Below, one piece after another: positions 8,325 to 39,398 of a stretch of DNA of 64,000 nt. A program made the position numbers and the translations under genes. The notes below the pieces were generated by a model that saw only the letters and a program-made list of their open reading frames with translations, did not search any database and was not told the origin of the DNA. This stretch comes from Vallitaleaceae bacterium 9-2 (GTDB taxonomy: Bacteria > Bacillota > Clostridia > Lachnospirales > Vallitaleaceae): positions 62,001-126,000 of the forward strand of contig CP121691.1 in NCBI GenBank assembly GCA_038396585.1. Reading direction: 5' to 3'. Every line of letters starts with the position of its first letter. The stretch's first letter is position 1.

Positions 8325-10730
8325 ATGGAAAAAACAATGGAGTTATTAGTCATTCATCATTCACATACCGACATTGGGTATACAGATCGACAGGAGAAAA
8401 TTGAGTGGCACCATATTAAGTATATTGAACGAGTTATTGATATTCTTAATGCGCAGGCGCCCAATCAACAACAGGAACCCTTTAAATGGACGTGTGAAAG
8501 TTTCTGGTGTGTAGAAAAATTCCTAGATAATACAACGCAAGAATATATTGATGATTTTATCAAATATGTGAAGGAAGGAAAGATAGGTGTATCCGGCAAC
8601 TATCTTAACTGCACGGATCTATTACATGAGACGATACATCAACAGACGCTCCACAAAGCTGTAGAAAAAATGGATGGCTTGGGATTAAACCTAACATGTG
8701 CAATGACGGCAGACATCAATGGTTATGGATGGGGGTATCCAGATGCCTTGTTGGATGAGGGGATTTCTAACTTTTATTCAGCATTACATACACATCATGG
8801 GTTTTATCCGACGAATAAAAAACAACGACCGTTTTTCTGGGAAGCACCAAGTGGAAGAAAAATTTTGGTGTGGCTAGGGGAACATTATAATATTGGAAAT
8901 GACTTGGGGCTTGTACAGTCCAACATTGGAAATTATATGGTTAGGGATGGTCTGCAAAATGAAAAGATTCCACCGTTTGAACTAGCAGAACAAAGAATCT
9001 ATAGATATGTTGAAAAGCTACGTGAAGATGGATATGCTTATGATTTTGTTCCGATTACAGTATCAGGACTTATGACAGACAATGCGCCGCCTAACGAGGC
9101 CATCTATAACTTTATTCAAGCATTTAATGAGAAGCATGGCAAGGCAATAAAAATTAAAATGGTCACGCTAGAAGAATTATTTGCCTATGTCCGTAAGCAT
9201 GAGAGCACAATTGAAACGTTTAAAGGTGACTGGACAGATTGGTGGGCAGATGGGATTGGTTCAACGCCCAATACCGTTAAGCACTATCGACAAGCACAGA
9301 GAAAATACAACATCTGTGAACGGCTTGATCCAAATCGAGAGATTATTGATCCAGATGTTATGGAGACAGCAAGGTACAACCTAATGTTCTACTCCGAGCA
9401 TACATGGGGATACTCTTCATCCATTATTGAACCATGGCATCCACAAGTGAATAATCTAGATCAAAGGAAGAATATGTATGCGAGCTTAGCGGATGAAGCG
9501 ACAAGTCGCGCCATAGATCAACTCAACGCATCCTATGGTGAAACAGAGGTGCGCATGAATAACGATTACCGTTTTAAGGTGATTAACCCTCATGACGTCA
9601 AGGTATCTGAGATTGCAAAGGTAAACTTAGAGATTCTTTTTTCCCATGAATGCTTTGATATTGTTGAAGAAGAGACAGGACATATCGTGCCCTATCAATG
9701 TGTAAGAATCCCTCGTGGTTTTGAAATTAATTTTTTAGCACAATTAGAACCAAAACAAATGAAAACGTATCGTGTTATTGAAAAAAAATCACCGTCACTT
9801 CATGCACCGGGTATGTCGGCAAATGACGGCAGCGATAGAATCGCTGACTTATATGCCCCAACAAGCGATTGTCCATTAAAGGTAACACCTTATCAATTAG
9901 AGACACCGTATTTTTCTATGGCATTTGATGAAGAGGATGGCATAACTTCCTTGGTGAATAAAGAAACGATGTGTGAACTTATTCATGAAGAGAAAGAATA
10001 TAACGTATTTACACCAATCTATGAGGTCACACCTTATACGCTAGACCCATGCGAGCAAAGACGAGTGATGGGACGTAACCGAAAGGATACCGGCACCCAA
10101 CGGCATGCAGGAAAGCTTAAGAAGATAGAGGTGCTTGAACAAGGTGATGTGTTGGGACGCCTAAAGCTGTCCTATGAATTACAAGGGACAACATTATGTG
10201 ACGTTATTTTAACGGGGTATATGCATCTGCCCAAAATTGATGTTGAGCTAAGAATACATAAGACGAGTGTGTGGGAACCGGAAAATCTGTACCTGGCATT
10301 GCCGCTTACAGCCGGTTTGGAAGAAGAAATATGGATGGACAAGTCTGGCGTGGCTTTTCGCCCAAGAGTTGATCAATTGCCGGGAAGCTGCATAGATTTT
10401 TATAGTATTCAAAATGGAATTGCTATGATTGGAAAAGATGCATCCATCATGGTGCTTACGCCGGATACTCCATTAGTTTCCATGGGAACGATAAAAGCGC
10501 ATCCTATAAAATTAGCAAAAGAAGCCCAGGTGAACAATGTGGACTTTATATACTCATGGGTGATGAATAATTTTTGGGAAACCAACTTCAAAGCATCCCT
10601 AGGTGGATTCTATCAATTTAACTATAGCATAGTATCCACTAAACACACACAACCGGAAAAATGTTTTGCTTTAGCCAAAGCGATGAATGACTCGGTTCTA
10701 GCCTTTCATATGTTTGATGTAAAGTATTAA
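8325..10730 (+). CDS. Glycoside hydrolase family 38-like protein (divergent alpha-mannosidase group)
   Basis: 801-residue cytoplasmic protein. The N-terminal GH38 catalytic domain starts at once with HHSHTDIGYT (residues 11-20); His14 and Asp16 are in place to bind the active-site zinc. The segment MTADINGYGW carries the likely nucleophile Asp130. A middle helical domain and a C-terminal beta-sandwich region follow. The sequence is far from the classical GH38 protein at 21467 (HTHIDVAW, LPDVFGYS), so this is a separate branch whose substrate may not be a plain mannoside. Ribosome site gggagg precedes ATG 8325. The UroD-family gene follows after 117 bases with its own possible promoter. Confidence 0.8.
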   Translation: MEKTMELLVIHHSHTDIGYTDRQEKIEWHHIKYIERVIDILNAQAPNQQQEPFKWTCESFWCVEKFLDNTTQEYIDDFIKYVKEGKIGVSGNYLNCTDLLHETIHQQTLHKAVEKMDGLGLNLTCAMTADINGYGWGYPDALLDEGISNFYSALHTHHGFYPTNKKQRPFFWEAPSGRKILVWLGEHYNIGNDLGLVQSNIGNYMVRDGLQNEKIPPFELAEQRIYRYVEKLREDGYAYDFVPITVSGLMTDNAPPNEAIYNFIQAFNEKHGKAIKIKMVTLEELFAYVRKHESTIETFKGDWTDWWADGIGSTPNTVKHYRQAQRKYNICERLDPNREIIDPDVMETARYNLMFYSEHTWGYSSSIIEPWHPQVNNLDQRKNMYASLADEATSRAIDQLNASYGETEVRMNNDYRFKVINPHDVKVSEIAKVNLEILFSHECFDIVEEETGHIVPYQCVRIPRGFEINFLAQLEPKQMKTYRVIEKKSPSLHAPGMSANDGSDRIADLYAPTSDCPLKVTPYQLETPYFSMAFDEEDGITSLVNKETMCELIHEEKEYNVFTPIYEVTPYTLDPCEQRRVMGRNRKDTGTQRHAGKLKKIEVLEQGDVLGRLKLSYELQGTTLCDVILTGYMHLPKIDVELRIHKTSVWEPENLYLALPLTAGLEEEIWMDKSGVAFRPRVDQLPGSCIDFYSIQNGIAMIGKDASIMVLTPDTPLVSMGTIKAHPIKLAKEAQVNNVDFIYSWVMNNFWETNFKASLGGFYQFNYSIVSTKHTQPEKCFALAKAMNDSVLAFHMFDVKY

Positions 10731-10793
10731 TCAATGGTGAGCGAAATCCACAAGTTCATGAGCGAATATCTTAAATGTCAATCAAGCGCCAAT

Positions 10794-10801
10794 GCTATAC
10801 T
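10794..10801 (+). promoter_or_regulatory. Possible extended -10 promoter for the UroD-family gene
   Basis: TGCTATACT forms an extended -10 box 46 bases before the ATG at 10848; TTAAAT at 10771 is a weak -35 with 19-base spacing. It would let the UroD-family gene be expressed separately from the GH38 gene upstream. Confidence 0.4.
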
Positions 10802-10847: not shown

Positions 10848-11855
10848 ATGACATCAAGAGAATTAGTATATCAAGCGTTGGAATTTAAACAGCCAAAGCG
10901 GGTGCCAAGGGATTTGTGGATTTTGCCTTGGGCACAGGAGAATTATTCGCAAGCATTGCAAAGGCTTAAAAAAGAGTATCCGAGTGACTTTACAGGAGCA
11001 CCGGGATATTGCTTAGAGCAAGATATAGCAAAGGGAGACCCCTATGCAGTTGGAGAATCTGTGGATGCATGGGGGTGTCGATTTATCAATTATCAAAAAG
11101 GGATTATTGGTGAGGTTAAGACACCGCTTGTTTGTGGAGAAAACTGGGAAGACGTGGATAATGTTCATATCCCCATAGAATGGTTGACCATCGATGAACA
11201 AAAAATTAATGCGTTTTGTAGCAGTACGGACAAGTTTGTTATGGCAGGATGTTGCCCGCGGCCCTTTGAGCAGCTACAGTTTATTCGTGGAACACAAAAT
11301 CTATTTGTTGATTTAATGTTATTGCCAGAAGGCTTGCTTGAGTTTATGAAACGCATGCATAAGTTTTACTGTGAACTTCTTGAAAAATGGGCAAAAACAG
11401 ATGTCGATGCGCTAATGATTATGGATGATTGGGGGTCACAGCAAAGCTTGCTGATCAATCCAAAATTATGGATTGAGTTATTTAAGCCCATGTATAAGGA
11501 TTATATTGATATCGCTCATCGACATGGGAAAAAAATATTTATGCATTCAGATGGATATATCCTTGATATTTTTCCACATCTTATTGAGCTAGGATTAGAT
11601 GCGATTAATTCGCAAGTCTTTTGTATGACACCCAAGCTTTTATCCCAATATCAAGGGAAAATAACCTTTTGGGGAGAGATTGATCGACAATATATCTTAC
11701 CGTTTGGAACCGAAAAAGAAGTTGAACAAGCGGTGCACAGTATTAAGGAATATCTTTACCATGGCGGTGGCTGCATAGCTCAATGTGAGTTTGGCCCCGG
11801 TGCAAAGCCTGAAAATATAACCAAAGTCTTTAAAACATGGGATGAGATTAGTTGA
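10848..11855 (+). CDS. Uroporphyrinogen decarboxylase-family protein (methyltransferase-like), altered zinc site
   Basis: 335-residue TIM-barrel protein of the UroD/MtaA superfamily. It is not a haem enzyme by context: no haem genes are nearby. Corrinoid methyltransferases of this family bind zinc through a His-x-Cys motif before a Gly; here the motif reads MHSDG (His233, Asp235), so the Cys is replaced by Asp. A Cys pair occurs near the C-terminus in GGGCIAQCEFGPG, where family members carry another zinc ligand. The start ATG follows ggaggt. It sits between a GH38 gene and an AraC gene. A role in methyl transfer or another small-molecule reaction on glycan fragments is inference. Confidence 0.75.
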   Translation: MTSRELVYQALEFKQPKRVPRDLWILPWAQENYSQALQRLKKEYPSDFTGAPGYCLEQDIAKGDPYAVGESVDAWGCRFINYQKGIIGEVKTPLVCGENWEDVDNVHIPIEWLTIDEQKINAFCSSTDKFVMAGCCPRPFEQLQFIRGTQNLFVDLMLLPEGLLEFMKRMHKFYCELLEKWAKTDVDALMIMDDWGSQQSLLINPKLWIELFKPMYKDYIDIAHRHGKKIFMHSDGYILDIFPHLIELGLDAINSQVFCMTPKLLSQYQGKITFWGEIDRQYILPFGTEKEVEQAVHSIKEYLYHGGGCIAQCEFGPGAKPENITKVFKTWDEIS

Positions 11856-11861
11856 GTTAGG

Positions 11862-12719
11862 ATGATGTGTATGAAAAACTTTGAGCCACTTCTAAAAATA
11901 TGCCAACAAGACATAAAATTCAATACGGTTGGAATTCGAATTCTTGGAATCCATGATATGGATAATGGAAGTCAATGGAAAGTTACAAGGCATCGACATA
12001 CTTTTTTTGAATTGCATTATGTGATTAAAGGGCATGTACATACACGGATGGAAGAACAGGAATATAAAATAGAAGCCGGTACCTATTATATTATTGCTCC
12101 ACAAACGTATCATTCACATAAGCAAAAAGAAGACTCCTCACATATTGGAGTGGCAATCCGTTGGGAGTTCACCAATGAAACTATCGAGACAAAAGAGCTA
12201 GCATCAGCACTTGAACAAGCCTCTTTGGAGCCTATAGCAGAAGATGCAAACATGCATGCATACATAGCGAGTCTTTTAAAAACAGGCGAAGCAAACAAGA
12301 GCATGTCCGAAGTACAGCTTTTAGTATTGCAAATTGTTTTTCGCGCAGCAGCCCAGCAGCAACGAGAAGATGCGATGGACTACTCCATGTATAAAAAGCG
12401 ACAGCATGATCATATAGTCAATCAAGCTCTTCGCTTTATCGAAGAAAATTATATGCAAGACATATTGGTTGAGGATGTAGCCCATTCAGTGTAAATGAGC
12501 TATAGTCAACTCTCAAGGCTTTTTAAAAGATATGTTGGAACTTCGGTCAATCAATATATCAATGCATATCGTATTGAAAGGGCAAAAGTCCTGCTTAAGA
12601 CGACACCTTATGAGATTCGAAGAATTGCAGAAGTTACAGGCTTTAATAGCGAGTATTACTTCTGCAATGCTTTTAAAAATCATATGGGGATTGCGCCAAG
12701 TAGATATAGAAAATTATAA
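11862..12719 (+). pseudogene. AraC-family regulator interrupted by an in-frame TAA
   Basis: Two parts lie in the same frame with nothing between them: 11862-12494 (cupin-type sensing domain and the start of the AraC domain, ending VEDVAHSV) and 12495-12719 (rest of the AraC domain, MSYSQLSRLFKRYVG to PSRYRKL). The TAA stop at 12492-12494 falls where intact AraC proteins have one residue, usually Gly, in the first recognition helix region. A single base change from AAA, GAA or CAA would give this stop. The ATG right after it has no well-placed ribosome site (gaggatg is 17 bases away). Most likely a recent nonsense mutation or a base error. The 3' end overlaps the convergent sulfatase gene by 6 bases. 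Confidence 0.75.
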
Positions 12720-14156
12720 ATATTTATCGCGTAATTTTTGTGCGCCTGCACAGCGATTGGTAGACTCTAGGCGCTTGATGTAGGCCTCAAGATCTGTGCG
12801 AGTATGAAAAGGACCGCCTTCACGCATGACTGTCCACATCGGATCGGTGATGCCCGGATTTTCAAGTAACAACTCTTCTTGCCAGTCTAAGATTAATTTT
12901 GCGCCTTGAGCGCAAATATCTGGATGTGCATCTTTTACATCATATTGCTCATAGGGATCATTTTTTAAGTTATATAGCATTTCCTTATCAAACAGATGGT
13001 AGCCATCATGTATGGTACGCATATATAGCCAATCTCCAAATCGAGCACTGCGTTGACACACATGCGCATTTTGCGAAAGAATTAAATAGTCTCTTGTAGC
13101 GTCGCCGCCATTAAAGACAGAAGCATAGCTCTTGCCATCCCAGTGGGAAGCGCTATCGACCCCTAACATCTCCGAAAGCGTTGGCAATAGGTCTAAATTA
13201 TAATGGAAGCCGGAGTCAATTTTACCGCCGATGACACCGGGCCACTTGATAATCATAGGAATATTACAAGTAGCTTTATCGGCGGTTCCATGTTCTGCAT
13301 AGATGCCTAGTTCACCCATATTTTCTCCGTGATCAGAAGTGATAATAATTGCAGTATCTTCATAGATGCCTAAGGATTTTAACTTATCAATGACTTGACC
13401 GACGATATAATCGGCATATAAAATTCCAGTATCATATCCATTGAGAAACTTAATAAAGGTATCATAATCTTCGCAACTGCCCGGTTGTCTAGGAAAATTC
13501 CCAACATTATCGTCATACATTCCTGTTTCTAAAATTGAATGTGGACCAACATGGGACTTGTGTGCTTCAAAAACTTCAGGAGTTAACCACGCTTTTATGG
13601 GGTCATTTTTAAAAGGGTCTCCAAACTCTTGAGGTGCGCGATAAGGGGTGTGAGGATCCCAGATATGAAAATGCAGGTACCAGTTATCGTCTGAACCTTT
13701 ACGTTCTAACCAATCAAGGGCTGTAGGCAAAACCTGCTCGCCGGATTCACTTCCACAACCGCCTTGATTATAGCATTCGTTAAGACCTGCATTAAACCAC
13801 CACATGGAGTGGCGCTCAGGAAAAGTACTAATTGAAGCCGTCTGCATTCCGGCTTTTCTAAAGATATTGTGAAAATTATCCACATCGACATAGTCTTGAA
13901 AGGAGCGGTCAGCACCAGAGAGACGGCGGTCGGCTGCTGTTCCTCCATGGCCGACAGCACCATTTTTAAATCCAAACATTCCACTGATAAGTGCCGCCCT
14001 AGAAGGTAGACAAGGAGCGTTGGATGTATAATAATTGTCAAAGCGGATGCCTTCATTACAGAGTAGGTCGATGTTAGGGGTTGTTTTTCTGTGATAACCA
14101 TAACAGCTCATATGGTCAGGTCTTAAAGTATCGATATCGATAAATAACAGTCGCAT
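12714..14156 (-). CDS. Sulfatase, type I (formylglycine-dependent, Cys type)
   Basis: Hydrolyses sulfate esters, probably from glycan fragments in the cytoplasm, as there is no signal peptide. The metal-binding start LFIDIDTLRPDHMSCYGY is followed by the sulfatase signature PCLPSR, where Cys49 would be converted to formylglycine. Further landmarks are a lysine-containing GNPxx-free mid region, TSDHGENMGELG near residue 280 and ADKATCNIPMIIKWPG. Length 480 is normal. The Cys form needs an anaerobic radical-SAM maturase, which is not in this window. Ribosome site aggaga precedes the ATG. It is divergent from the AraC gene at 14279, a likely regulator. Confidence 0.92.
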   Translation of the reverse strand: MRLLFIDIDTLRPDHMSCYGYHRKTTPNIDLLCNEGIRFDNYYTSNAPCLPSRAALISGMFGFKNGAVGHGGTAADRRLSGADRSFQDYVDVDNFHNIFRKAGMQTASISTFPERHSMWWFNAGLNECYNQGGCGSESGEQVLPTALDWLERKGSDDNWYLHFHIWDPHTPYRAPQEFGDPFKNDPIKAWLTPEVFEAHKSHVGPHSILETGMYDDNVGNFPRQPGSCEDYDTFIKFLNGYDTGILYADYIVGQVIDKLKSLGIYEDTAIIITSDHGENMGELGIYAEHGTADKATCNIPMIIKWPGVIGGKIDSGFHYNLDLLPTLSEMLGVDSASHWDGKSYASVFNGGDATRDYLILSQNAHVCQRSARFGDWLYMRTIHDGYHLFDKEMLYNLKNDPYEQYDVKDAHPDICAQGAKLILDWQEELLLENPGITDPMWTVMREGGPFHTRTDLEAYIKRLESTNRCAGAQKLRDKYL

Positions 14157-17286: not shown

Positions 17287-17922
17287 ATGAAAAGTGTATT
17301 TTCGATTGATGGCATAATGTATAAATGGGGAATGGCAATGATTGATGCCATCTATATGAATTTATTATGGATAGTGTTTACCTTGATTGGTCTTGGATTT
17401 ACGGGGGGAGCGGCAACGGTTGCCTTAATGACTATGTTTAAAAGGAAGAATGAAGGCAAGGGAAATATTGGCTTTCATTACTTTTTTGAAGTGTTTAAGC
17501 AAAAGTTTCACATAGCAACAAAAGTTTGGCTGATTATGCTAAGTTGTATAGCGGTTATTTTAATTAACTTAACCCAGATGGATCGCTTGACGCGTATTTT
17601 TAGCAACCCGGTTCTGTTGCTGATCATCTTTGCAGTGCAGTTTACGCTGTTGATTCAAATTATAGCAACCACCACATATACGTTGATTTTGTTGGCATAT
17701 AAATCAGGGACCATTAAACAGTTGTTTTTTGAAGCAACGGTGATGGCTTATCAATTTTTAGGAACGACAATCACACTTTTGGCACTGTTAAGTGTACTTG
17801 TGTATGGAAGTGTTTTTGTACCAATTTTTAATTTTGTAGGCATTAGTGTATTTAGTATTATTGCTATAAAAATGCTAAATACAAAAATCATCATAAAAGA
17901 GGAGGCACATCATGACGAATGA
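17287..17922 (+). CDS. YesL-like membrane protein (DUF624)
   Basis: 211 residues with about five hydrophobic helices. The N-terminus (FSIDGIMYKWGMAMIDAIYMNLLWIVF) and the GLGFTGGAATVALMTM segment match the YesL/DUF624 family, which is often encoded beside LplB/YtcP importers and YesMN systems. Molecular role is not established. It overlaps the next gene (sulfatase) by 11 bases, so the two are co-translated. Confidence 0.85.
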   Translation: MKSVFSIDGIMYKWGMAMIDAIYMNLLWIVFTLIGLGFTGGAATVALMTMFKRKNEGKGNIGFHYFFEVFKQKFHIATKVWLIMLSCIAVILINLTQMDRLTRIFSNPVLLLIIFAVQFTLLIQIIATTTYTLILLAYKSGTIKQLFFEATVMAYQFLGTTITLLALLSVLVYGSVFVPIFNFVGISVFSIIAIKMLNTKIIIKEEAHHDE

Positions 17923-19360: not shown

Positions 19361-19375
19361 GTGCTTGTGCACTTA
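19358..19375. terminator. Hairpin joining the two convergent stop codons
   Basis: taagtgc-ttgt-gcactta: 7-bp perfect arms whose outer bases are the TAA stops of the sulfatase (19358-19360) and of the convergent UroD-family gene (19373-19375). No T run, so termination is likely weak; it may limit transcript read-through between the convergent genes. Confidence 0.45.
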
Positions 19376-20404: not shown

Positions 20405-20556
20405 ATTAACCTCCATATACATGTGCTGTTTATTTTTATTAAGAGTATCAATGTTATATTGAACGTATTATAGCATTGATAAGGAAAAAGATAGGAATGA
20501 AAAAAGGTCAAAAATCTTAGAAATTAGGACAAAAGATAGTGTGGTGATGGGTGTAT

Positions 20557-29846: not shown

Positions 29847-29862
29847 TAATATGTTAACTGCC

Positions 29863-29897
29863 AATGGGATTGGGGATATGAAGAACCCAATCCCATT
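29863..29897 (+). other. Strong intra-operon hairpin after the binding-protein gene
   Basis: Arms aatgggattggg and cccaatcccatt pair perfectly over 12 bp with an 11-base loop, but no T run follows. Typical of a 3' stabiliser that keeps binding-protein mRNA more abundant than the downstream enzyme mRNA. Confidence 0.6.
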
Positions 29898-29935
29898 CAA
29901 TAATTAACGATGATAAAAAAGTGAGAGAAATGACG

Positions 29936-30922
29936 ATGAAAGAATATAAAATTATTGGAAATGTATTGGAAAATATTCCATGGGAAGATAAACCTGAAGG
30001 ATGCAAGGATGTGTTATGGCGTTCATCAATGAATCCGATTATACCGCGTGATTTATTACCAAAATCAAACAGTATCTTTAACAGTGCAGTGGTTGCATTT
30101 GAAGATGGGTTTGCAGGCGTTTTTCGTGTGGACGATACGCGAAGAGAGATGCGTATTCATGCCGGTTTTAGTAAGGATGGTGTCCACTGGGATATTGACG
30201 AAAAACCGATAGAGTTCATAGGCGATATTGAACAAGTCAGTGAATTTGATTATGCCTATGATCCACGTGTAGTCTGGATTGAAGACCGATATTATGTGAC
30301 ATGGTGCAATGGATTTCATGGACCAACGATAGGCATTGCCTACACCTATGATTTTAAAGCATTTTATCAGATGGAAAATGCATTGCTTCCATATAATCGT
30401 AATGGAGTTCTTTTTCCAAGAAAAATCAATGGAAAATTTGCCATGTTAAGTCGTCCAAGTGATTCGGGGCATACACCTTTTGGCGATATTTTTTATAGCC
30501 AAAGTCCAGATCTAATTCACTGGGGACAACACCGACATGTTATGGAACCTAGAGGCTGGTGGCAGAGCACGAAAATCGGAGCAGGACCTGTTCCAATTGA
30601 GACGTCCGAAGGATGGCTGTTGATTTATCATGGTGTGTTGACTTCATGTAACGGTTATGTATACCATATGGGAGCGGCATTGCTTGATTTAGAAAAACCT
30701 TGGAAAGTTATTGCCAGAACAGAACCATATATATTAAACCCAAGACACGACTATGAATGTGTTGGTGATGTGCCAAATGTTGTCTTTCCTTGTGCAGCGT
30801 TAACCGATGAAGCGACCGGACGTATTGCTATTTACTATGGTGGAGCAGATACAGTCACATGCTTAGCATATACAACAGTCGATGAGCTTGTTCGCTTTAC
30901 ATTAGAAAACTCTAAGTTATAA
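29936..30922 (+). CDS. Glycoside hydrolase family 130 protein, beta-mannoside phosphorylase type
   Basis: About 328 residues with the five-bladed propeller pattern of GH130: [28 protein letters not shown] followed by [41 protein letters not shown], and the HHG-like IYHGVL segment. GH130 enzymes cleave beta-mannosides with phosphate to give mannose 1-phosphate. Possible starts are GTG 29921, ATG 29930 and ATG 29936; I prefer the last because gagaga lies about 7 bases before it. It sits between the binding protein and a UroD-family gene. Exact acceptor (GlcNAc, mannose or glucose) cannot be told by eye. Confidence 0.88.
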
Positions 30923-30960
30923 ACTTGCTGACAACGCGCACATAAAGTATAAGGAGAATT

Positions 30961-32088
30961 ATGGAATCTAGGATTAGAATGTTGAATGTCTTGGATAAAA
31001 AGCCTGTAGATAGGCTGCCAGTGACGACCCATCATGTTCAAGACTATTTTTTAAAAAAGTACATGAAAGATATCAGTGTGGATGATTTTTTTGAGGAGGT
31101 CGGCTTAGATCCGATTGTTTGGATACATGAAATCAAAGGTGCAGATAATACGGGAACATTCATAAAAGATGGGGTGTTGCAAAGTGAAAATTGGCGTGTA
31201 ACAGCTCAAGAGCTTCCGGACCCCGATTATAAAACGATTCGATATACGATTCATACACCCAAAAAACAACTGACCATGGTAAAACAATGCAATGAATATA
31301 CTTGCTGGGTAGGCGAACATCTCGTTAAAGAAAAAAGTGATATTGATGTGATTGCTCAATATGCACCGATAGAACAATGTGATGTAGAGGCGATTAATAA
31401 AGTTGCAGCACAGACAGGCAATAAAGCGCTAATACGAGGAATGATTCCCAGTTTTCCTTTTTATGGTCAGCCTGGATGCTGGCAAGATGCAGCGTGTCTA
31501 TTTGGTATTGAACCGTTGATTATGGAAACGTTTGATGACCCTGAGTGGGTACATGAGTTTTTAAAAGTACTTCATCATCGAAAGATGACCTATGTCAATT
31601 CGTTGGATAAAGCTGCTTTTGACATATTGGAACTAGGCGGTGGAGATGCATCCTCAACAGTTATTTCTCCAACAATTCTTGAGCAATTTGTATTGCCTTA
31701 TGACAGTCAGATTATTCAAAAGGCAAAGGAGTTTAACCAACGAATTGCATACCATACATGTGGTGGCATGATGCCTATATTGGAACAATTGGCCTCGATG
31801 AAGCCTGCGGCACTAGAGACATTTACCCCGGTTGGTATGGGAGGCGATGTGGACTTAGCACAAGCAAAAAGGCGTATCGGTGATAAAGTGGCCATGATTG
31901 GCGGCTTTGATCAAGGAAAGTATTTTATGGGCGCATCAGAACAAGAGGTTCGAAGTGCAGTAAGAAAATGCTTTAACGAGGCAGGAGAAGGTGGCGGATT
32001 TATTTTATCCCCTTCAGATCATTTTTTTGATGCAAATCCAGAGCTTATAAAAGTGTTTGCCGACGAAGCAAAAAAATGTACGTATTAA
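30961..32088 (+). CDS. Uroporphyrinogen decarboxylase-family protein (methyltransferase-like)
   Basis: 375-residue UroD/MtaA-type barrel with an intact His-x-Cys zinc motif, YHTCGG, and a C-terminal GGFILSPSDHFFDA loop. It follows the GH130 gene by 38 bases in the same operon, with aaggaga before its ATG. A strong terminator separates it from the PocR-type regulator and corrinoid genes just downstream. A role as the substrate-side methyltransferase for a methylated sugar, handing the methyl group to the corrinoid proteins at 33502 and 34236, fits the position but is not shown. Confidence 0.82.
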   Translation: MESRIRMLNVLDKKPVDRLPVTTHHVQDYFLKKYMKDISVDDFFEEVGLDPIVWIHEIKGADNTGTFIKDGVLQSENWRVTAQELPDPDYKTIRYTIHTPKKQLTMVKQCNEYTCWVGEHLVKEKSDIDVIAQYAPIEQCDVEAINKVAAQTGNKALIRGMIPSFPFYGQPGCWQDAACLFGIEPLIMETFDDPEWVHEFLKVLHHRKMTYVNSLDKAAFDILELGGGDASSTVISPTILEQFVLPYDSQIIQKAKEFNQRIAYHTCGGMMPILEQLASMKPAALETFTPVGMGGDVDLAQAKRRIGDKVAMIGGFDQGKYFMGASEQEVRSAVRKCFNEAGEGGGFILSPSDHFFDANPELIKVFADEAKKCTY

Positions 32089-32100
32089 ACAAACGTGAAG

Positions 32101-32134
32101 GGCGTTATTCTCATCTTGAGAATAACGCCTTTTT
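32101..32134 (+). terminator. Rho-independent terminator
   Basis: 13-bp perfect stem ggcgttattctca / tgagaataacgcc, loop TCT, followed by TTTTTA. Ends the binding-protein/GH130/UroD operon. Confidence 0.92.
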
Positions 32135-32203
32135 ATCAAACAGAGCCAAGAAACCATTAAAGTGTATGAAAATCTAGGTGATGAAAGACGGTGGAAGATA
32201 CCA

Positions 32204-33472
32204 ATGAATTTTGATGAAAAAGAGCTTGAACATATTCGCGTATCTATGGGAATCTTTTATAATACCACAGGGATTCCATGTATCTTGACTGATGAAGAAG
32301 GCAAAATTTTATATTGTGAAGGTGAGCGTAGAAATTACTGTGTTAAACTTCAAAATCTGCCTGAAAGTGCGTATACATGTCAATTAGCGCATAAAGAGGC
32401 GAGCAGGCAGGCACAGACGCTTGGTGAAGCCTATATATCCTATTGTCCTGCCGGGTTGATTAACTATAGTGTCGCCTTAACCAGCGGTAAACTGTTTAAG
32501 GGAGCGATTGTTGCAGGCCCGGTACATATGAGTGAACCCGATGATTATGAAGTGGATATGACCGTTAAAAAAATGCTGCTACCGCATCAAGAAAAGCAGA
32601 TGCTTAAAAACTTGTATCGATTAATCCCGATGATCTCTCCAAATGTTGCAAGATATCAGTTGGAGCTGTTGACAATACTGGCAAAAGATATTATGTCAGA
32701 CCATAAAAATGTTCTGGAAAAGAAAAAAGCCTTTTATGATGAACAACGTACCATTAGTGAACGTATTCAAGAGATAAAAGAAACGTTGCCCTTAGCAACA
32801 ACAACGGGCAAGGGCTACCCGATTTATCTGGAAAAAGATTTGGCATTAGCAATTATCAAAGGTGATGCATCATCTGCAAAAGCAGTTCTTAATGAGCTCC
32901 TTGGCTATATATTTTTTATGCATAAAGGCGATAACAAAAAAATCATTGCAATGACACTAGAGCTTGTAGTCGTTATGTCAAGAGCGGCGGTTGAAGGTGG
33001 CGTGCGTTATGAAGAGATATCTAAAGTAACGCAGGATATGTTCTTAAAAACCTATGATTTAGAAGATATTGAGACTATATGTATGAATCTTATGGAAGTT
33101 TTGGAAGATATTATTTTATTTGTTTTTCCGATGGATACAAACAAGCAAGAGCAAATCGGGGTTATGCGAAAAGCGGTTATGTATATGAATCAGAACCTAC
33201 AAAATAATATTGGTTTAGAAGATGTCGCTAAAGCCATTGGCTTAAGTCCAACATATTTTTCAAGAATGTTTAGCCAAGAAATGAAGATGACCTTTATCGA
33301 TTATATGACAAAGATTCGTATTGAAGAAAGTAAAAAATACTTGGTGGATTCGGGACAAAGTATTAGCGATATCGCATTAAGGTTAGGATTTTCTGATCAA
33401 AGCTATTTTTCCAAAGTGTTTAAAAAAGTTGAAGGCATGACGCCGGGAAAATATCGAAAGATGTATTTATAA
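32204..33472 (+). CDS. AraC-family regulator with PocR sensory domain
   Basis: 422 residues. The first ~160 residues form a PocR-type ligand or redox-sensing domain with several Cys (GIPCILTDEEGKILYC, NYCVKL, YTCQLAH, SYCPAGLINY). A middle helical region follows, then a C-terminal AraC domain (VAKAIGLSPTYFSRMFSQEM; ends MTPGKYRKMYL). ATG 32204 is chosen over GTG 32162 because ggtggaag lies 6 bases upstream. PocR-domain regulators are known beside cobalamin-dependent pathways, and this gene opens the corrinoid cluster, so it probably activates it in response to the methylated substrate or product. Confidence 0.92.
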   Translation: MNFDEKELEHIRVSMGIFYNTTGIPCILTDEEGKILYCEGERRNYCVKLQNLPESAYTCQLAHKEASRQAQTLGEAYISYCPAGLINYSVALTSGKLFKGAIVAGPVHMSEPDDYEVDMTVKKMLLPHQEKQMLKNLYRLIPMISPNVARYQLELLTILAKDIMSDHKNVLEKKKAFYDEQRTISERIQEIKETLPLATTTGKGYPIYLEKDLALAIIKGDASSAKAVLNELLGYIFFMHKGDNKKIIAMTLELVVVMSRAAVEGGVRYEEISKVTQDMFLKTYDLEDIETICMNLMEVLEDIILFVFPMDTNKQEQIGVMRKAVMYMNQNLQNNIGLEDVAKAIGLSPTYFSRMFSQEMKMTFIDYMTKIRIEESKKYLVDSGQSISDIALRLGFSDQSYFSKVFKKVEGMTPGKYRKMYL

Positions 33473-33501
33473 TGATGGTGTAGAAATAAAGGTGGGTATA
33501 C

Positions 33502-34143
33502 ATGGACAGATTAGAAATAATAAATTCTTCACTGCGACAAGGCAATTCAGGGCAAACGCGTAAAAATGTCATTCAAGCCTTAGACAGTGGTTGTGATTGT
33601 CGCCAAATTATTGAAAGTATGTTAGCGGTCATGGAAGATGTGGGGCAGCAATTTAAAAATAATGAGCTGTTTGTACCGGAGGTGCTTATCATCGGAAGAG
33701 CCTTTAATGTTGCACTTGATGTCATGGGTCCCTTACTCGATGCCAAGCAGGAATATAAAGGAGTTGTTGTCATAGGAACGGTTCAAGGGGACCTACATGA
33801 TATTGGCAAAAACCTTGTGAAGATGCTGATGGTTGGTACGGGAGCCAAAGTTATTGACCTGGGTGTTGATGTAAAACCGGAAGCGTTTGTGGAAGCAATC
33901 AAAGCATATCAACCGGATATTGTGGCCATGTCGGCATTATTAACAACAACGATGATTCAAATCAAACAGACGATTAAAGCGATTGAACAGGCCGGACTTA
34001 GAGATCAAGTTAAGATTTTTGTTGGGGGAGCACCGGTGACACAGCATTATGCGAAAAATGTAGGGGCGGATTATTATGCCCTTGATGCCGGGAGTGCGGC
34101 AGAAATTGTACGACAAGTGTATCGGAACAAAGTGGTCGAATAG
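33502..34143 (+). CDS. Corrinoid (cobalamin-binding) methyl-carrier protein
   Basis: 213 residues, the normal length for MtaC/MtbC-type carriers. A helical cap domain (PEVLIIGRAF) precedes a Rossmann B12-binding domain with DLHDIGKNLV; His99 is the lower cobalt ligand. GLGVDV- and MVGGAP-type motifs follow (DLGVDV, FVGGAPVT). It carries a methyl group on cobalt between two methyltransferases. A paralogue lies 92 bases downstream. Ribosome site aaaggtggg. Confidence 0.95.
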   Translation: MDRLEIINSSLRQGNSGQTRKNVIQALDSGCDCRQIIESMLAVMEDVGQQFKNNELFVPEVLIIGRAFNVALDVMGPLLDAKQEYKGVVVIGTVQGDLHDIGKNLVKMLMVGTGAKVIDLGVDVKPEAFVEAIKAYQPDIVAMSALLTTTMIQIKQTIKAIEQAGLRDQVKIFVGGAPVTQHYAKNVGADYYALDAGSAAEIVRQVYRNKVVE

Positions 34144-34235
34144 ACCTCAAGATATTACCAAAAGTGATAACGAACTTCTATCATAGAGGCTAAAAACAGA
34201 TTAGAATGAAGCTAATATGATTATTAGGAGGTAAT

Positions 34236-34874
34236 ATGATGAGTCAAAATTATGAGCAAATCAGTGAGTTGTTGCAAAAAGGAAATATGCCGGAAGTGGT
34301 ACGATTATGTCAAGAAGCAGTGCATAGCGGTGCACCTGCCTCTGAAATTCTAGAAGCACTTTTATCAGGGATGAGTGTTATCGGAGGAAAATTCAAACGC
34401 AATGAAGTCTTTGTCCCTGAAGTGTTGATAGCAGCAAGGGCAATGAACGGTGGATTAGATGTTATTAAACCACTCTTGGCATCCGAAGGTGTTCAGTCCA
34501 TTGGAAAGGTTGTTATAGGAACGGTAAAAGGGGACTTGCATGATATCGGTAAAAACCTTGTAGCCATGATGTTAACAGGAGCTGGGCTTGAAGTTATTGA
34601 TTTAGGTGTTGACGTATCAGCGGAAAAATATGTCGAGGCAATTGAAGAGCATGAGGCAGATATTGTGTGTATGTCAGCCCTATTGACAACAACCATGACG
34701 TATATGAAAACCGTTCTAGAGGCCATCAATGAAAGAGGGATTCGAGATAAGGTTAAGGTTATGGTCGGAGGTGCACCGGTCACAGATGAATACGCACTGG
34801 AAATCGGAGCGGATAAATATACAGCGGATGCGGCAACGGCTGCAGAAGAAGCGAAGATGTTATTAACAGCTTAA
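34236..34874 (+). CDS. Corrinoid (cobalamin-binding) methyl-carrier protein, second copy
   Basis: 212 residues, clearly a paralogue of the preceding gene with the same cap and B12 domain; DLHDIGKNLV has lower ligand His102. Strong aggaggt site; ATG 34236 or the next codon. The two carriers differ mainly in the cap region, which contacts the substrate methyltransferase, so each may serve a different one. This fits the presence of several UroD-family genes nearby. The 92-base gap before it shows no clear terminator. Confidence 0.95.
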   Translation: MMSQNYEQISELLQKGNMPEVVRLCQEAVHSGAPASEILEALLSGMSVIGGKFKRNEVFVPEVLIAARAMNGGLDVIKPLLASEGVQSIGKVVIGTVKGDLHDIGKNLVAMMLTGAGLEVIDLGVDVSAEKYVEAIEEHEADIVCMSALLTTTMTYMKTVLEAINERGIRDKVKVMVGGAPVTDEYALEIGADKYTADAATAAEEAKMLLTA

Positions 34875-34905
34875 GCACATTGTGCAGTAGAAAAGGAGCC
34901 TTATC

Positions 34906-36264
34906 ATGACAGGAAAAGAACGTATTCTTAATACATTAAATCATAAAACAACAGATAGAGCGCCGTGGGTACCCTTTGCAGGCGTTCATGCCGGAGCACT
35001 CATCGGAAAAAATGCGACCCAAGTACTCACCGATGGTGAGCTGCTTTTTGAAGCGTTAAAAAAGGTGAAAGAGTTATATGCACCTGATGGGATGCCGGTT
35101 GTTTTTGATTTGCAAGTGGAAGCAGAGATTTTGGGGTGTGAATTGGTGTGGGCAGATGAAGCGCCACCGTCAGTAAAGACACATCCGTTGGAAGATACGA
35201 CACAGATGCTTTGTGACTGTAAACAACCGGAACCGGACAAAGGACGACTTCCAATGATTTTGGATGTAATGCAGAAGATGTATAGGGCCTATGGAGAAGA
35301 TACGGCGTTATATGGATTGATTTGCGGGCCGTTTACCTTGGCATCACATCTTAGAGGGAACAACCTTTTTATGGACATGGTTTTGGATGAAGCCTATGTG
35401 AAAAAGCTTATGGAATACACAACAACGACAGCGCTTAAGATGTGTGACATGTATATAGACGCAGGAATGGATGTTATCGCAGTCGTTGATCCATTGGCCT
35501 CTCAGATATCACCGGAACACTTTAGCAGTATGTGTCATGAGGCATTTAAGACGATATATGATTACATACGCGCAAAGGGCAAAGCATCTTCCTTTTTTGT
35601 TTGTGGCAATGCAACGCGCCAGATTGAGGTGATGTGTCAGACAGGACCGGATTCCATTTCAGTGGATGAAAATGTAGAGATGAAAGCGGCAAAAGCCATC
35701 ACAGATCAGTATAATGTTGCGATTGGAGGCAATATTCCCTTAACCACATTGATGCTCCATGGAACCCAGCAAGAAAATATGAAATATGTGGTGAATATGT
35801 TGGACGAACTAGGTAGCGATAATCTCATCATTGCTCCTGGGTGTGATATGCCGTATGCTGTTCCGGCAGAAAATACTATTGGAATAGCCCAGGCAGTTCG
35901 CGAGACGGACTCAGTGCGTGAGATGGTTAAAAATTATGAAGCACCAAAGGAAGACATAGAGGTAGAACTTCCGGATTATCAACACCTTGAAAAACCACTT
36001 GTTGAAGTGTTTACCCTTGATTCAGCAACGTGTGCGGCGTGTACATATATGATGGATGCTATGAATGTTGCAGGTGAAGCATACAAAGAACAAATCGATC
36101 TTATCGAATATAAATTCACCAAAAAAGAGAATATAGCTCGCTGCGTAAAAATGGGGGTTAAAAATCTACCCTGTGTATATATTAACGGAGAGCTAAAGTG
36201 GTCTTCCATCATTCCAAGTAGGGAAGAGCTGTTTGGCGAGATTGATAAGCATTTAAAACAATAA
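34906..36264 (+). CDS. MtaA/CmuA-type methyltransferase with C-terminal thioredoxin-like CxxC domain
   Basis: 452 residues. Residues 1-345 form a UroD/MtaA barrel with FFVCGNAT in the zinc-motif position (His replaced by Phe) and the third-ligand loop IAPGCDMPYAVP. The last ~85 residues form a small thioredoxin-like domain with CAAC near residue 377 and the cis-Pro-like NLPCVYING. Encoded between the corrinoid carriers and their activator, it is the probable methyltransferase moving methyl between corrinoid and an acceptor. The extra redox domain is unusual for MtaA itself; it may deliver a thiol or protect the zinc site. Ribosome site aaaggag. Confidence 0.88.
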   Translation: MTGKERILNTLNHKTTDRAPWVPFAGVHAGALIGKNATQVLTDGELLFEALKKVKELYAPDGMPVVFDLQVEAEILGCELVWADEAPPSVKTHPLEDTTQMLCDCKQPEPDKGRLPMILDVMQKMYRAYGEDTALYGLICGPFTLASHLRGNNLFMDMVLDEAYVKKLMEYTTTTALKMCDMYIDAGMDVIAVVDPLASQISPEHFSSMCHEAFKTIYDYIRAKGKASSFFVCGNATRQIEVMCQTGPDSISVDENVEMKAAKAITDQYNVAIGGNIPLTTLMLHGTQQENMKYVVNMLDELGSDNLIIAPGCDMPYAVPAENTIGIAQAVRETDSVREMVKNYEAPKEDIEVELPDYQHLEKPLVEVFTLDSATCAACTYMMDAMNVAGEAYKEQIDLIEYKFTKKENIARCVKMGVKNLPCVYINGELKWSSIIPSREELFGEIDKHLKQ

Positions 36265-36298
36265 AAGTAGTAAAAATATTGGTATGGAGAAAACGCAC

Positions 36299-38464
36299 AT
36301 GGGTGAATACATTAAATTAAAGAGAAGGTTTGATAAAGAGGCAGTCTTAACAATGGTGGAGTGTTATAAAGATAATCCATCATATGCTTCATATAGTCAA
36401 TTGTTTGATGAACTTGTTGAACAATATCTAGATAAAATCACACCCAAAGGGTATGTGGAGGTATATAAGGAACAAAACCGCATAGAATGCTTAGTAACGT
36501 TGGGACCAGATTGTGACCGATGGATAAGAGAAGCCTTTGACCATTACATGTACTTGGAGGGGATGCTACTTAATAGCTTGTTTGATATGATGCTGTATGA
36601 AGCCAGCAATCAATTGTATGAAACCGTTAAAACGATGGTTCCAAAAGGAAAACATTTGAGTATGCGTTATGAACCGGGACAATTAAACGTACCGATGCAA
36701 GAGCAACGCTATATTTTTGAAAGGTTGCAAAAAAGCTGTGATTTACAGATGTCCATTACACAAGGATGCATGCTTAATCCGACAAAGTCAACGGTGTATT
36801 ATTATGAGCTTGTGGACTACGAGTGTGCATTTGGCATTGACCATGATTGTAGTCACTGCCAGACCCCATGTAGTAACAAAAAACATACAATAACAATTAA
36901 AAATCCAGATTCCTTACAAGTGTTACAAATCATACAAGGCAAAAAAGGAGAAAATATTTTAGACGTCTTAAGGCAAAACCATCGTTTTGTTGATGCACCT
37001 TGTGGTGGGAAAAAGGTTTGCGGTAAATGTAAAATACAAGTAGAAGAACATGAATTTTGCATAGAAGATGCAGAGCGGGCATTTTTAGGAGAGCATCTGG
37101 TTGAAGAAGGGTTTATATTGGCATGCTATCATGAATTGGACAGGGATTTAGTAATGTTGTCCAATGAAATGGGGGCAAAGGAAGAGATGAATACTCCCCA
37201 AAAAACACATATTGAAGCAGAGTATACACCTTATAAAATCACAGAACCTAAATATCCAAAAGATGAGAGAACACCCCACTTTGGCGTGGCAATAGATATT
37301 GGGACAACAACAATAGTGGTCAGTCTTATTGACTTAGTTTCAAAAGAAACTATCGCAACTAAAAAGGTACTCAATCCACAAAAAGCCTATGGAGCAGATG
37401 TGATTAGCCGTATTCATTATGTTAATGAACATAAGGAACATGATCTAGGTACGAGCATTCGTAATAAGTTATGGGAGTTAACAAAAGTATTATTGGAAGA
37501 CCATGCACAACAGCTAGGTGCAAAGACCCTGGTTGAAATTGAAGAAATGGTTATCTCCGGTAATACGACAATGATATATCTGCTTCTTGATATCGTACCG
37601 GAAAAATTGGCGATAGCGCCTTTTGAAACCGTTTGTCCGCCACCGATTGTCTGCTCATCTCAGGATGTATTGGATATACCTTATATATTTGATATTGTTG
37701 TCATTCCATGGGTATCGGCCTATGTGGGAGGCGATATTGTCTCGGGGATGTATATGACGCAATTTGATCAGACACCAGGCAATAATCTTTTTATTGACAT
37801 AGGGACCAATGGTGAAATGGCAATCAAAACAGAAAACGGATTGGTTTCAGCAGCGACGGCTGCCGGACCGGCTTTTGAAGGCGCAAATATCAAGTGTGGT
37901 ATGGGATCTGTGGATGGAGCAATTTGTGAAATCCATAGGCAAGAAGAAGGCTATGGAATTGTGACCTTAGGTGGAGAAAAAGCAATTGGAATTAATGGGT
38001 CGGCCTTAGTCGATGGGGTTGCGTTATTACTTGAAGATAAAAAAGTGAATGCGATGGGATATATGGAATCACCGGAGATGATTTTTGAACATATCGGATT
38101 TTATCCAGAAGATATAAGACAGCTTCAACTGGCTAAAAGCGCCATATGTGCAGGCGTTGACGTGCTCATAGGTGAAGCCGGAATCCAGGTGGAGGATATT
38201 GATACGGTATACATCGCTGGAGGATTTGGCAGTCATCTAAATATTAAACATGCAATTACGATAGGCCTGATTCCAAAAGCTTTAGAGTCTAAGGTAAACG
38301 TGATTGGAAATGCATCTTTAGGCGGAGCGATACGTTGTCTTTTAGAACGCCGGGGGAAAGAAAAAATTGTTGAAATTGCTAAGGCATGTCAGTACTTAGA
38401 ACTATCGAGTAATTATAGGTTTAATACGGCATATATGGAACGCATGATTTTTGAAATGGAGTGA
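36299..38464 (+). CDS. Reductive activator of corrinoid proteins (RACE), with N-terminal MetH-activation-like domain
   Basis: 721 residues from ATG 36299 (GGAG 9 bases upstream; ATG 36284 would add five). Residues ~1-170 resemble the AdoMet-binding activation domain of methionine synthase: MRYEPGQLNVPMQEQRYIF, then MSITQGCMLNPTKST. A four-Cys patch follows (Cys176, 184, 187, 191). A [2Fe-2S] ferredoxin domain comes next with CGGKKVCGKC (Cys235, 241, 244) and a later ACYHE. The rest is the ASKHA-type ATPase (DUF4445) starting VAIDIGTTT. RACE proteins use ATP to reduce inactive cob(II)amide. It follows the methyltransferase by 34 bases and overlaps no other gene. Confidence 0.92.
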   Translation: MGEYIKLKRRFDKEAVLTMVECYKDNPSYASYSQLFDELVEQYLDKITPKGYVEVYKEQNRIECLVTLGPDCDRWIREAFDHYMYLEGMLLNSLFDMMLYEASNQLYETVKTMVPKGKHLSMRYEPGQLNVPMQEQRYIFERLQKSCDLQMSITQGCMLNPTKSTVYYYELVDYECAFGIDHDCSHCQTPCSNKKHTITIKNPDSLQVLQIIQGKKGENILDVLRQNHRFVDAPCGGKKVCGKCKIQVEEHEFCIEDAERAFLGEHLVEEGFILACYHELDRDLVMLSNEMGAKEEMNTPQKTHIEAEYTPYKITEPKYPKDERTPHFGVAIDIGTTTIVVSLIDLVSKETIATKKVLNPQKAYGADVISRIHYVNEHKEHDLGTSIRNKLWELTKVLLEDHAQQLGAKTLVEIEEMVISGNTTMIYLLLDIVPEKLAIAPFETVCPPPIVCSSQDVLDIPYIFDIVVIPWVSAYVGGDIVSGMYMTQFDQTPGNNLFIDIGTNGEMAIKTENGLVSAATAAGPAFEGANIKCGMGSVDGAICEIHRQEEGYGIVTLGGEKAIGINGSALVDGVALLLEDKKVNAMGYMESPEMIFEHIGFYPEDIRQLQLAKSAICAGVDVLIGEAGIQVEDIDTVYIAGGFGSHLNIKHAITIGLIPKALESKVNVIGNASLGGAIRCLLERRGKEKIVEIAKACQYLELSSNYRFNTAYMERMIFEME

Positions 38465-38468
38465 ATTC

Positions 38469-39398
38469 ATGACCAATATATATTTAATCACAGGATTTTT
38501 GGGGGCTGGAAAAACAACGTTTTTAAACAGACAATTAGCGAATTGCACTAGAAAAACGGGAGTTTTGATCAATGAGTTTGGCAAGGTGAGTATGGATACA
38601 ATCGCTATGGAGAGCCATGGAATTGATGTGTTGGAATTGACCAATGGATCGATTTTTTGTGCGTGTCTTAAGGACCGCTTTATAGAAGGGTTAATACAAC
38701 TAGTACAAATGGATTTGGATGATATTTATATTGAAAGCTCCGGGTTATCCGATCCTTCAAACATGGAAAGTGTCCTAAAAATTCTAGAAAAAAAAGTACA
38801 GGATGTATCGTATGTATATAGGGGCTCCATATGTCTTGTGGATGGTCTGTATTTTTTTGAGGAACTAGAAAAACTGGCGAATGTAGAACGCCAGATAAAA
38901 CATAGTCATTATATTATCATTAATAAAGCGGATCTTATTAGTGATAAGAAAATCATGGATATAAAAAAAGCCCTTGTTGCCATGAACCCGCATTGCATAA
39001 TTGAGGTTGCAGACCATGGAAGGTGTCCCATGAATCCTGTGAAAAATCTTTATTATCCGATAGATGAAGATGAGACCATTAACACCCAAGACAATCGTCC
39101 CAAGCAGTTGATTATGTCTTTTTTGAAATCACCAACACGTGAGCAACTACAAGAATTTTTAGAGGAAATATGTGTCGGATTCTATCGATTCAAAGGTTAT
39201 GTTCGAATCGATAACCAAATGTTTAAAGTGGATGGCGTGAACAAAAGAATTGATATGGTTGCAATAGACGAAAAAGCGCCTGGGTTAAACGCGAGTAACA
39301 CCTTGGTATTTCTTGCGTCCAATGGCCTAGAAAGCATTACACTATTGCTAGCATCTGCAGAAAAATACATAGCGGGTCTATATAAAATTCAAGTCTAA
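38469..39398 (+). CDS. CobW-like P-loop GTPase
   Basis: 309 residues. Walker A GFLGAGKTTF, switch region ESSGLSDPSNME, base-specificity motif NKAD, and a short C-terminal domain. The metal motif reads NGSIFCAC rather than the GCICC of standard CobW proteins. ATG 38469 has tggag 7 bases upstream; the frame is open back to 38451 but inside the RACE gene. As part of the corrinoid operon it could supply metal (zinc for the methyltransferase or cobalt) or act as a chaperone; role is inferred. Confidence 0.88.
   Translation: MTNIYLITGFLGAGKTTFLNRQLANCTRKTGVLINEFGKVSMDTIAMESHGIDVLELTNGSIFCACLKDRFIEGLIQLVQMDLDDIYIESSGLSDPSNMESVLKILEKKVQDVSYVYRGSICLVDGLYFFEELEKLANVERQIKHSHYIIINKADLISDKKIMDIKKALVAMNPHCIIEVADHGRCPMNPVKNLYYPIDEDETINTQDNRPKQLIMSFLKSPTREQLQEFLEEICVGFYRFKGYVRIDNQMFKVDGVNKRIDMVAIDEKAPGLNASNTLVFLASNGLESITLLLASAEKYIAGLYKIQV

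Follow-up and report, generated by a model that had tools for sequence, protein, structure and literature searches.

The 64,000-nucleotide stretch of the Vallitaleaceae bacterium 9-2 genome analysed here (the window, bases 62001-126000 of a single contig of 3,813,169 bases) holds genes of corrinoid-dependent methyl transfer interleaved with genes of glycan breakdown. On balance, the locus probably serves the corrinoid-dependent O-demethylation of imported, methylated mannose-containing oligosaccharides, with several enzymes of the uroporphyrinogen decarboxylase (URO-D) fold sharing one corrinoid shuttle. A Pfam profile search of the 3.81 Mb genome returned four URO-D matches (E <= 0.001), all inside one 25.4 kb span, a clustering for which a rough estimate puts the chance at ~2e-6. 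Three are stand-alone candidate methyltransferases at 10848..11855 (plus strand, 46.9 bits), 19373..20422 (minus strand, 83.2 bits) and 30961..32088 (plus strand, 84.6 bits). In the fourth, 34906..36264 (plus strand, 179.7 bits), an MtaA-like URO-D domain precedes a C-terminal thioredoxin domain (Thioredoxin_3). Proteins are named below after the lower coordinate of their genes. As the initial annotation had pointed out, each stand-alone gene lies directly beside a glycosidase or sulfatase gene: 10848 starts 117 bp after a GH38 gene, 19373 and a sulfatase gene meet tail to tail 12 bp apart, and 30961 starts 38 bp after a GH130 gene.

In the proposed scheme, ABC importers would take up mannose-containing, sulfated and O-methylated oligosaccharides whole. 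Their breakdown would be cytoplasmic, because the glycosidases and sulfatases carry no export signal as judged by eye; sulfatases, GH88 and DUF2264 proteins, GH38 enzymes and a GH130 phosphorylase would strip off sulfate, uronate and mannose. 10848, 19373 and 30961 would act as substrate-side corrinoid methyltransferases that take the O-methyl group from the sugar, using metal sites predicted to be of the H-D-E, H-C-H and H-C-D kind, respectively; methyl-mannose is indirectly favoured as the substrate. The methyl group would pass to Co(I) of two corrinoid proteins encoded at 33502..34143 and 34236..34874 (both plus strand, Pfam B12-binding and B12-binding_2; the first also has an MtgC-like NCBIfam match below cut-off). 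Co(II) would be re-reduced by a RACo-type reductive activator of corrinoid proteins (36284..38464, plus strand, Pfam PF14574, 205.2 bits). These three proteins provide the corrinoid carrier and reductive activator by which three-component O-demethylases are recognised. On the acceptor side, the likeliest enzyme is the thioredoxin fusion 34906, which would deliver the methyl group to a thiol.

Metal sites and fold of the URO-D proteins

According to PMC10418091, S-type URO-D methyltransferases have a His-Cys-Cys metal site, in which one or both Cys are replaced in the O-type. None of the four proteins of the window has His-Cys-Cys; their patterns read F-x-C...C (34906), H-x-C...D (30961), H-x-C...H (19373) and H-x-D...E (10848). 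Judged from these motifs and by the same criterion, the metal-site residues agree better with O- than with S-demethylation. The patterns are conserved in a motif alignment: H265, C267 and D353-H354 are invariant in 13 sequences of the 30961 family and H241, C243, H324 and E325 in 28 of the 19373 family, and most of 8 rows of the 10848 family keep H-x-D and (C/L)-E. The third position of each metal site was assigned by motif context, not from model coordinates.

AlphaFold models were obtained for 30961 (pLDDT 91.5) and 19373 (pLDDT 93.3). For both, the top Foldseek match by E-value was MtaA (4ay8; 2.3e-15 and 1.3e-12, respectively). The URO-D fold, a further hallmark of three-component O-demethylases, is accordingly assigned to the stand-alone proteins by Pfam for all three and by the models for these two. 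A PDB sequence search with 10848 and 19373 gave no match. Haem synthesis was considered as a function and rejected: the best URO-D score is 68.8 bits against an NCBIfam HemE cut-off of 302.95, and as none of the four proteins reaches this cut-off the genome shows no HemE. The earlier statement that haem genes are absent holds for HemE, to which the search was limited.

Linkage to glycan genes in other genomes

A profile of 19373 retrieved 301 confirmed relatives from GTDB genomes, of which the best 80 were kept, 79 of them not from this species. The hosts of these best 80 include Clostridia, Spirochaetes, Kiritimatiellae, Lentisphaerae, Opitutaceae, Planctomycetes and Calditrichaeota as well as Cloacimonadota, Bacteroidetes, Chloroflexi, Gemmatimonadetes, Armatimonadota and others. 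By tblastn, GH38 genes were found in 13 of the 79 loci (ten Clostridia, one Kiritimatiellae, one Bacteroidetes and one 'Bacterium UASB270'), and relatives of 30961 (132-479 bits) in 13/79, from Clostridia, Spirochaetes, Kiritimatiellae, Bacteroidetes and Anaerolineae. The pairing of the 19373 and 30961 families spans four or more phyla. Corrinoid protein genes occur in four loci (one 9 kb off), RACo in one and GH130 in one (72% identity). In a Kiritimatiellae locus (L136), genes for 30961, 19373 and an 8325-type GH38 protein stand in a row, and in a Christensenellaceae locus (L155) a single co-directional run comprises GH38, URO-D (30961), a further URO-D, URO-D (19373), ROK kinase and D-lyxose isomerase genes. 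D-lyxose isomerases, which also act on mannose, are encoded in three of the 19373-family loci and L-fucose isomerase in four. A Cloacimonadota locus (L123) combines GH31, a transglutaminase-like gene, 19373, a corrinoid protein, a weak methionine-synthase-activation match and URO-D; a Bacteroidetes locus (L187) holds a corrinoid protein, a PfkB kinase, three URO-D genes and a PhyH gene; and L119 reads corrinoid protein, URO-D, DUF2284, RACo, URO-D, 19373.

Two side observations concern these loci. The DUF2284 predicted metal-binding protein between URO-D and RACo in L119 (6805-7386) may be a further part of systems of this kind. Moreover, a third URO-D type recurs beside 19373, at 8901-9977 in L155, at 11039-12085 in L150 and in L160; the copies in L150 and L160 match that of L155 at 400 and 513 bits, and L155 and L150 also have GH38.

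Pfam tallies of the genes nearest to the 19373 family put GH38 on top, with 9 of 108 genes compared with no more than 1 among 108 control genes (p 0.003-0.019), followed by three alpha-fucosidases (at most one in the control), two fucose isomerases and two rhamnosidases. The test set consists of the first 108 of 134 neighbour genes, after dropping those more than 1.5 kb away, shorter than 150 aa or overlapping URO-D matches, and the control set of 108 of 114 open reading frames from 20 contig ends in 20 of the 50 genomes described below. Each tally lists its first 25 families (out of 135, 182 and 133), hence the control count for GH38 of at most 1. The reading frames were predicted with a simple caller, under which genes in GC-rich contigs go undetected. 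Among 86 genes around 30961 relatives, which partly share their loci with the test set, there are four GH38, three PfkB, three ABC ATPase, two D-lyxose isomerase, two ROK, two GH31 and two PhyH genes. A comparison of sugar marker genes with control loci, in which GH38 and sulfatase were each seen in 1/20, is descriptive only, being biased by queries taken in part from the tested loci.

Related arrangements occur within the order, which was represented by 295 genomes (labelled G, 213 of them at least 90% complete) including the present genome and its sister. A 19373 relative lies near the same GH38 (~1585 bits) and a two-component pair in G155 and G177, and between two GH38-like genes in G101. 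G170 has a 30961 relative in the run GH38, unknown, GH31, URO-D, unknown, PfkB, and another URO-D gene adjoining an AraC gene and L-fucose isomerase. In G014, a 30961 relative stands beside GH2 and AraC genes with housekeeping genes around them. Relatives of 10848 keep their AraC partner in G155, G170, G177 and G014. Of the co-occurrence of GH38 and GH130 with URO-D and corrinoid genes that the initial annotation proposed to look for, linkage to glycan genes was seen for the 19373 and 30961 families, which in other genomes are linked to GH38, GH130, GH31, GH2, sugar kinases and isomerases. The linkage in relatives is more than a local accident.

Co-occurrence with the corrinoid machinery

Protein searches of the 295 genomes of the order found relatives of 30961 in 4, of 34906 in 22, of 19373 in 18 and of 10848 in 9. 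Among genomes at least 90% complete, 34906 is present in 7/7 with 10848 and 10/13 with 19373 vs 17/213 overall; across all 295 the figures are 7/9, 11/18 and, with 30961, 4/4 vs 22/295. Genomes with 10848 that lack 34906 are G159 and G252 (66% and 70% complete), and those with 19373 that lack it are G018, G101, G124, G173, G203, G216 and G252. Counted by genus, 34906 accompanies 10848 in 4/6, 19373 in 7/12 (p 5e-6) and 30961 in 3/3 vs 12/129, in tests that ignore kinship finer than genus. RACo was found in 17 of the 18 genomes with 19373 (p 1e-6), the exception being G203 (84% complete), vs 119/295 overall. Among the first 50 of the 79 genomes behind the 19373 loci, RACo is present in 44 (controls 1/14) and a 34906 relative in 19.

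The co-occurrence is mostly unlinked: other genera keep their 10848-, 19373- and 30961-type genes away from the corrinoid core. In G170, the 34906 gene is located at C1:520446 and the URO-D genes at C1:823274, C4 and C26. The core also occurs in genomes without the three URO-D families (e.g. G048, G115, G131 and G190). Separation of the corrinoid cluster from glycan genes in relatives had been named in advance as an outcome that would count against the system, and it was observed. The idea nevertheless survives in part, since members of the 19373 and 30961 families show linkage to sugar genes in other genomes and the 19373 family co-occurs genome-wide with corrinoid activation genes. In G014 (L084, 9626-14772) the core itself has a sugar-type transporter (MFS_2) and one more URO-D gene as neighbours, and in G155 and G170 it lies near genes similar to the ABC permeases of the window. 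As a separate observation, a first look at G155, G170, G177, G149, G216 and G252, with 6 candidates per genome scored, gave 21 to 56 URO-D candidates each, which suggests large URO-D expansions in some anaerobes.

The thioredoxin fusion and the methyl acceptor

The best PDB sequence match of 34906 is MtaA (phmmer against 4ay7, E 6.6e-20, query residues 4-329). Its F-x-C ... P-G-C pattern has Phe where the phmmer alignment places the zinc-binding His of MtaA, and this holds in 21/21 sequences of the family, the window included; both Cys and the CxxC of the thioredoxin domain are likewise kept in 21/21. The score of 161.7 bits stays below the NCBIfam cut-off for MtaA/CmuA (TIGR01463, 235.4 bits). 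In view of the missing His ligand, the earlier proposal that 34906 passes the methyl group on has to be regarded as a guess.

A folate-type methyltransferase II (Pterin_bind), the remaining component of three-component O-demethylases, was not found: PF00809 matches in the genome are confined to FolP and a frame of 1259 aa, which from its length is taken as MetH-like. Searches of the genome found no acetyl-CoA synthase. On these grounds an acetogenic folate route was rejected and a thiol appears to be the likeliest acceptor, since neither a folate-type methyl-corrinoid transferase beyond the MetH-like protein nor acetyl-CoA synthase is present; the MetH-like protein could be an alternative acceptor-side enzyme. 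An MttB-type substrate enzyme was rejected as well, as a genome-wide profile search found no MttB. The claim that MtaB/MttB-type proteins are lacking is upheld for MttB; MtaB (PF12176) was not searched for genome-wide.

Alternative explanations

Several observations weigh against sugar O-demethylation by the URO-D proteins. Structural similarity does not single out a methyltransferase: TM-scores fail to split MtaA from uroporphyrinogen decarboxylases (0.63 for 4ay8 vs 0.66 for 3cyv with 30961; 0.69 for both with 19373), and identity in these matches is ~15%. The metal residues are no proof of chemistry either, because CdmB, a URO-D methyltransferase, is active without zinc (PMC13222342). The link to GH38 is mostly confined to Clostridia, and 59 of the 79 loci of the 19373 family have no gene from the narrow set of sugar marker queries within 4 kb. 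Among the 50 genomes scored for corrinoid genes, whose completeness is not given, 6 have no RACo and 31 no 34906 relative; in the order RACo is common anyway, as the overall count of 119/295 shows. PhyH, a dioxygenase family that uses oxygen, accounts for two of the 86 neighbours of 30961 relatives, one of them in L187, so that not all hosts need be strict anaerobes. Finally, no relatives of the window glycosidases were found beside the 10848 relatives in G155, G170, G177 and G014, where neighbours were not Pfam-scanned. The idea that the URO-D proteins are the sugar-side enzymes is supported in part, by linkage, co-occurrence and metal residues.

Three other explanations were weighed. The corrinoid core (33502-39398) might be a system for S- or Se-demethylation of the type 1 mlp kind, with glycan genes as neighbours by chance or through unrelated regulation. 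Such a system would resemble the observed run, in which two URO-D genes share their direction with two corrinoid protein genes and RACo and no folate methyltransferase is nearby (cf. PMC10418091). It would agree with MtaA as closest PDB sequence of 34906 and with a core that stands apart from the glycan URO-D genes in the relatives examined. Still, it is unlikely, as His-Cys-Cys is nearly invariable in that group (PMC10418091) and missing from all four proteins, URO-D relatives elsewhere show linkage to sugar genes, and the core has the sugar-type transporter (G014) and window-like permease genes (G155, G170) for neighbours. The stand-alone proteins might also be sugar-acting enzymes that use the barrel for another reaction (decarboxylase, lyase or isomerase-like) and are not methyltransferases. 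The MtaA rank by E-value in both models, the preserved H-x-C motif and third-ligand region, and corrinoid activation genes that co-occur above background make this improbable, even though the superfamily includes decarboxylases with TM-scores like those of MtaA, the lower structural matches of 19373 include sugar epimerases and xylanases, and RACo is absent from 6/50 genomes.

Least expected is a system for methoxylated aromatics or other non-sugar methyl ethers attached to the glycan, which we judge highly improbable. Known URO-D O-demethylases do act on methoxylated aromatics (PMC10418091, PMC13222342), with phenyl methyl ethers as substrates, and belong to systems laid out in the same way, with a substrate enzyme, a corrinoid protein and an activator. 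The partners of the present families in other genomes are, on the other hand, GH38, fucosidase, fucose isomerase, rhamnosidase, D-lyxose isomerase and sugar kinases; no aromatic-degradation family appears among the first 25 of 135 and the first 25 of 133 families, and there is no folate methyltransferase II besides the MetH-like protein. O-Demethylation of methylated sugars remains the preferred explanation.

Locus architecture and neighbouring genes

Pfam and NCBIfam matched the parts named in the initial annotation (URO-D, B12-binding, RACo, CobW, GH38, GH130 and sulfatases) where it had placed them. Ten co-directional genes span 28353-40208 with gaps of -14 to 92 bp, in the order binding protein, GH130, URO-D, PocR-AraC, two corrinoid proteins, URO-D-thioredoxin, RACo, CobW and SDR. 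The solute-binding lipoprotein of an ABC importer (28353..29846, Pfam SBP_bac_1 and DUF3502) is followed by the GH130 mannoside phosphorylase (29921..30922, 245 bits), whose closest solved chain is UHGB_MP (4udg, E 2.9e-162), an enzyme active on N-glycan cores. The PocR-AraC regulator (32162..33472, Pfam PF10114 and HTH_18) separates 30961 from the corrinoid genes, and a CobW-family GTPase (38451..39398, Pfam PF02492, 111.9 bits) and an SDR oxidoreductase of uncertain role (39462..40208, Pfam PF13561, 170.7 bits) end the run; all are on the plus strand. Predicted plus-strand terminators within 28353-40208 all fall inside genes and none in gaps, which is weak evidence.

Upstream, the plus strand encodes a DUF2264 protein (5336..7072, Pfam PF10022, 403.6 bits), perhaps a glycan-processing enzyme, and a GH88-family unsaturated uronyl hydrolase (7026..8183, Pfam PF07470, 48.7 bits). 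The latter confirms the uronyl hydrolase of the initial annotation, though just outside the range 8325-39398 given for it. The GH38 gene preceding 10848 encodes a divergent alpha-mannosidase-like protein (8325..10730, plus strand, Pfam PF01074, 62 bits) for which a PDB sequence search gave no match at E 0.001; a second GH38 alpha-mannosidase (21467..24589, plus strand) scores 307.4 bits with the same profile. Two sulfatases (Pfam PF00884) carry the C-x-P-S-R motif, at 12714..14156 on the minus strand (150.8 bits, CLPSR in the translation) and at 17912..19360 on the plus strand (166.8 bits, CVPSR), the latter being the neighbour of 19373. Between them lie two ABC-type permeases on the plus strand (15385-16305 and 16320-17234, Pfam BPD_transp_1).

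A near-identical locus (L118), with most proteins at ~90-99% identity, is present in Clostridiales bacterium UBA4039 (G069), which belongs to the same species. The SDR reading frame is open in the window, and this sister genome has just a short match. The AraC-type regulator at 11862-12494 measures 210 aa without an HTH match, and relatives in G155, G170, G177 and G014 have 304-314 aa. Because these are longer and an HTH-like stretch directly follows in the sister genome, the gene seems to be disrupted or split in the window and in the sister alike. A separate alpha-glucan cluster adjoins at 41839-50605 (glycogen phosphorylase, ABC sugar-type importer and 4-alpha-glucanotransferase). No Rfam element, cobalamin riboswitch included, reached the gathering score within the window. 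A foreign island was rejected on composition, as the GC fraction, taken in 4-kb steps, stays within 0.31-0.41 and does not change abruptly where the cluster begins or ends.

Comparison with known systems

Glycans of algae, molluscs and plants contain O-methyl sugars. The sole route of sugar demethylation met in the literature search is an oxygen-dependent P450 that demethylates 6-O-methyl-galactose in aerobes, a monooxygenase that makes formaldehyde (PMC10033563). This route and the present locus have in common the removal of O-methyl from a sugar during glycan degradation, by unrelated proteins. Searches of an open-access library, with subscription papers mostly not covered, showed no report of anaerobic sugar O-demethylation or of a URO-D protein tied to glycosidases. 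As a tentative and more general proposal, which may well be too broad, there could be a cross-phylum class of anaerobic corrinoid-dependent sugar O-demethylases, in which several to dozens of divergent URO-D proteins per genome would be tied to glycan loci and particular methyl positions and feed one corrinoid shuttle, with a His-less, thioredoxin-fused MtaA-like protein ending on a thiol, not folate. An anaerobic route, if it exists, would account for the complete breakdown of methylated glycans by bacteria living without oxygen, assign a role to large URO-D families that are uncharacterised, and supply non-acetogens with methyl groups for sulfur or methionine metabolism.

Type 1 mlp clusters, as described by Kountz and Balskus (PMC10418091), comprise at least two Mlps, a corrinoid protein and Ram, in one direction and less than 2 kb apart, with no folate methylase within 20 kb; the definition also requires 25% identity of Mlp to SCMT. 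The run 30961, 33502, 34236, 34906 and 36284 has this layout, with gaps of at most 92 bp and PocR between 30961 and 33502, and the PF00809 genes lie far from the locus. Several MtaA-like proteins, a corrinoid protein, a Ram/RACE activator, co-direction and the lack of a nearby folate methyltransferase are thus shared. Membership was rejected on the His-Cys-Cys metal site; unlike in type 1 mlp clusters, the MtaA-like protein of the locus is fused to thioredoxin with Phe for His, and the linkage is to glycan rather than sulfur or selenium genes. The soluble coenzyme M methyltransferases MtaA and MtbA resemble 34906, which aligns along MtaA and keeps its two Cys, and differ in that 34906 falls below the NCBIfam cut-off, has the zinc His replaced by Phe and carries an extra thioredoxin domain.

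With the MtvB, OdmB, VdmB and MtoB systems, the locus shares a substrate methyltransferase of the URO-D fold, a small corrinoid protein, a RACE-type activator and metal residues other than His-Cys-Cys. Unlike these systems, it lacks a folate-type methyltransferase II beyond the MetH-like protein, its neighbours are glycosidases, sugar kinases and isomerases, and it appears to serve three substrate-side enzymes with a single shuttle. The mechanism itself belongs to a known kind, combining a URO-D substrate enzyme, a corrinoid carrier and a RACE protein; the elements that would be new are the proposed class of sugar substrates, a shuttle common to scattered substrate enzymes, and a thioredoxin fusion that lacks the His.

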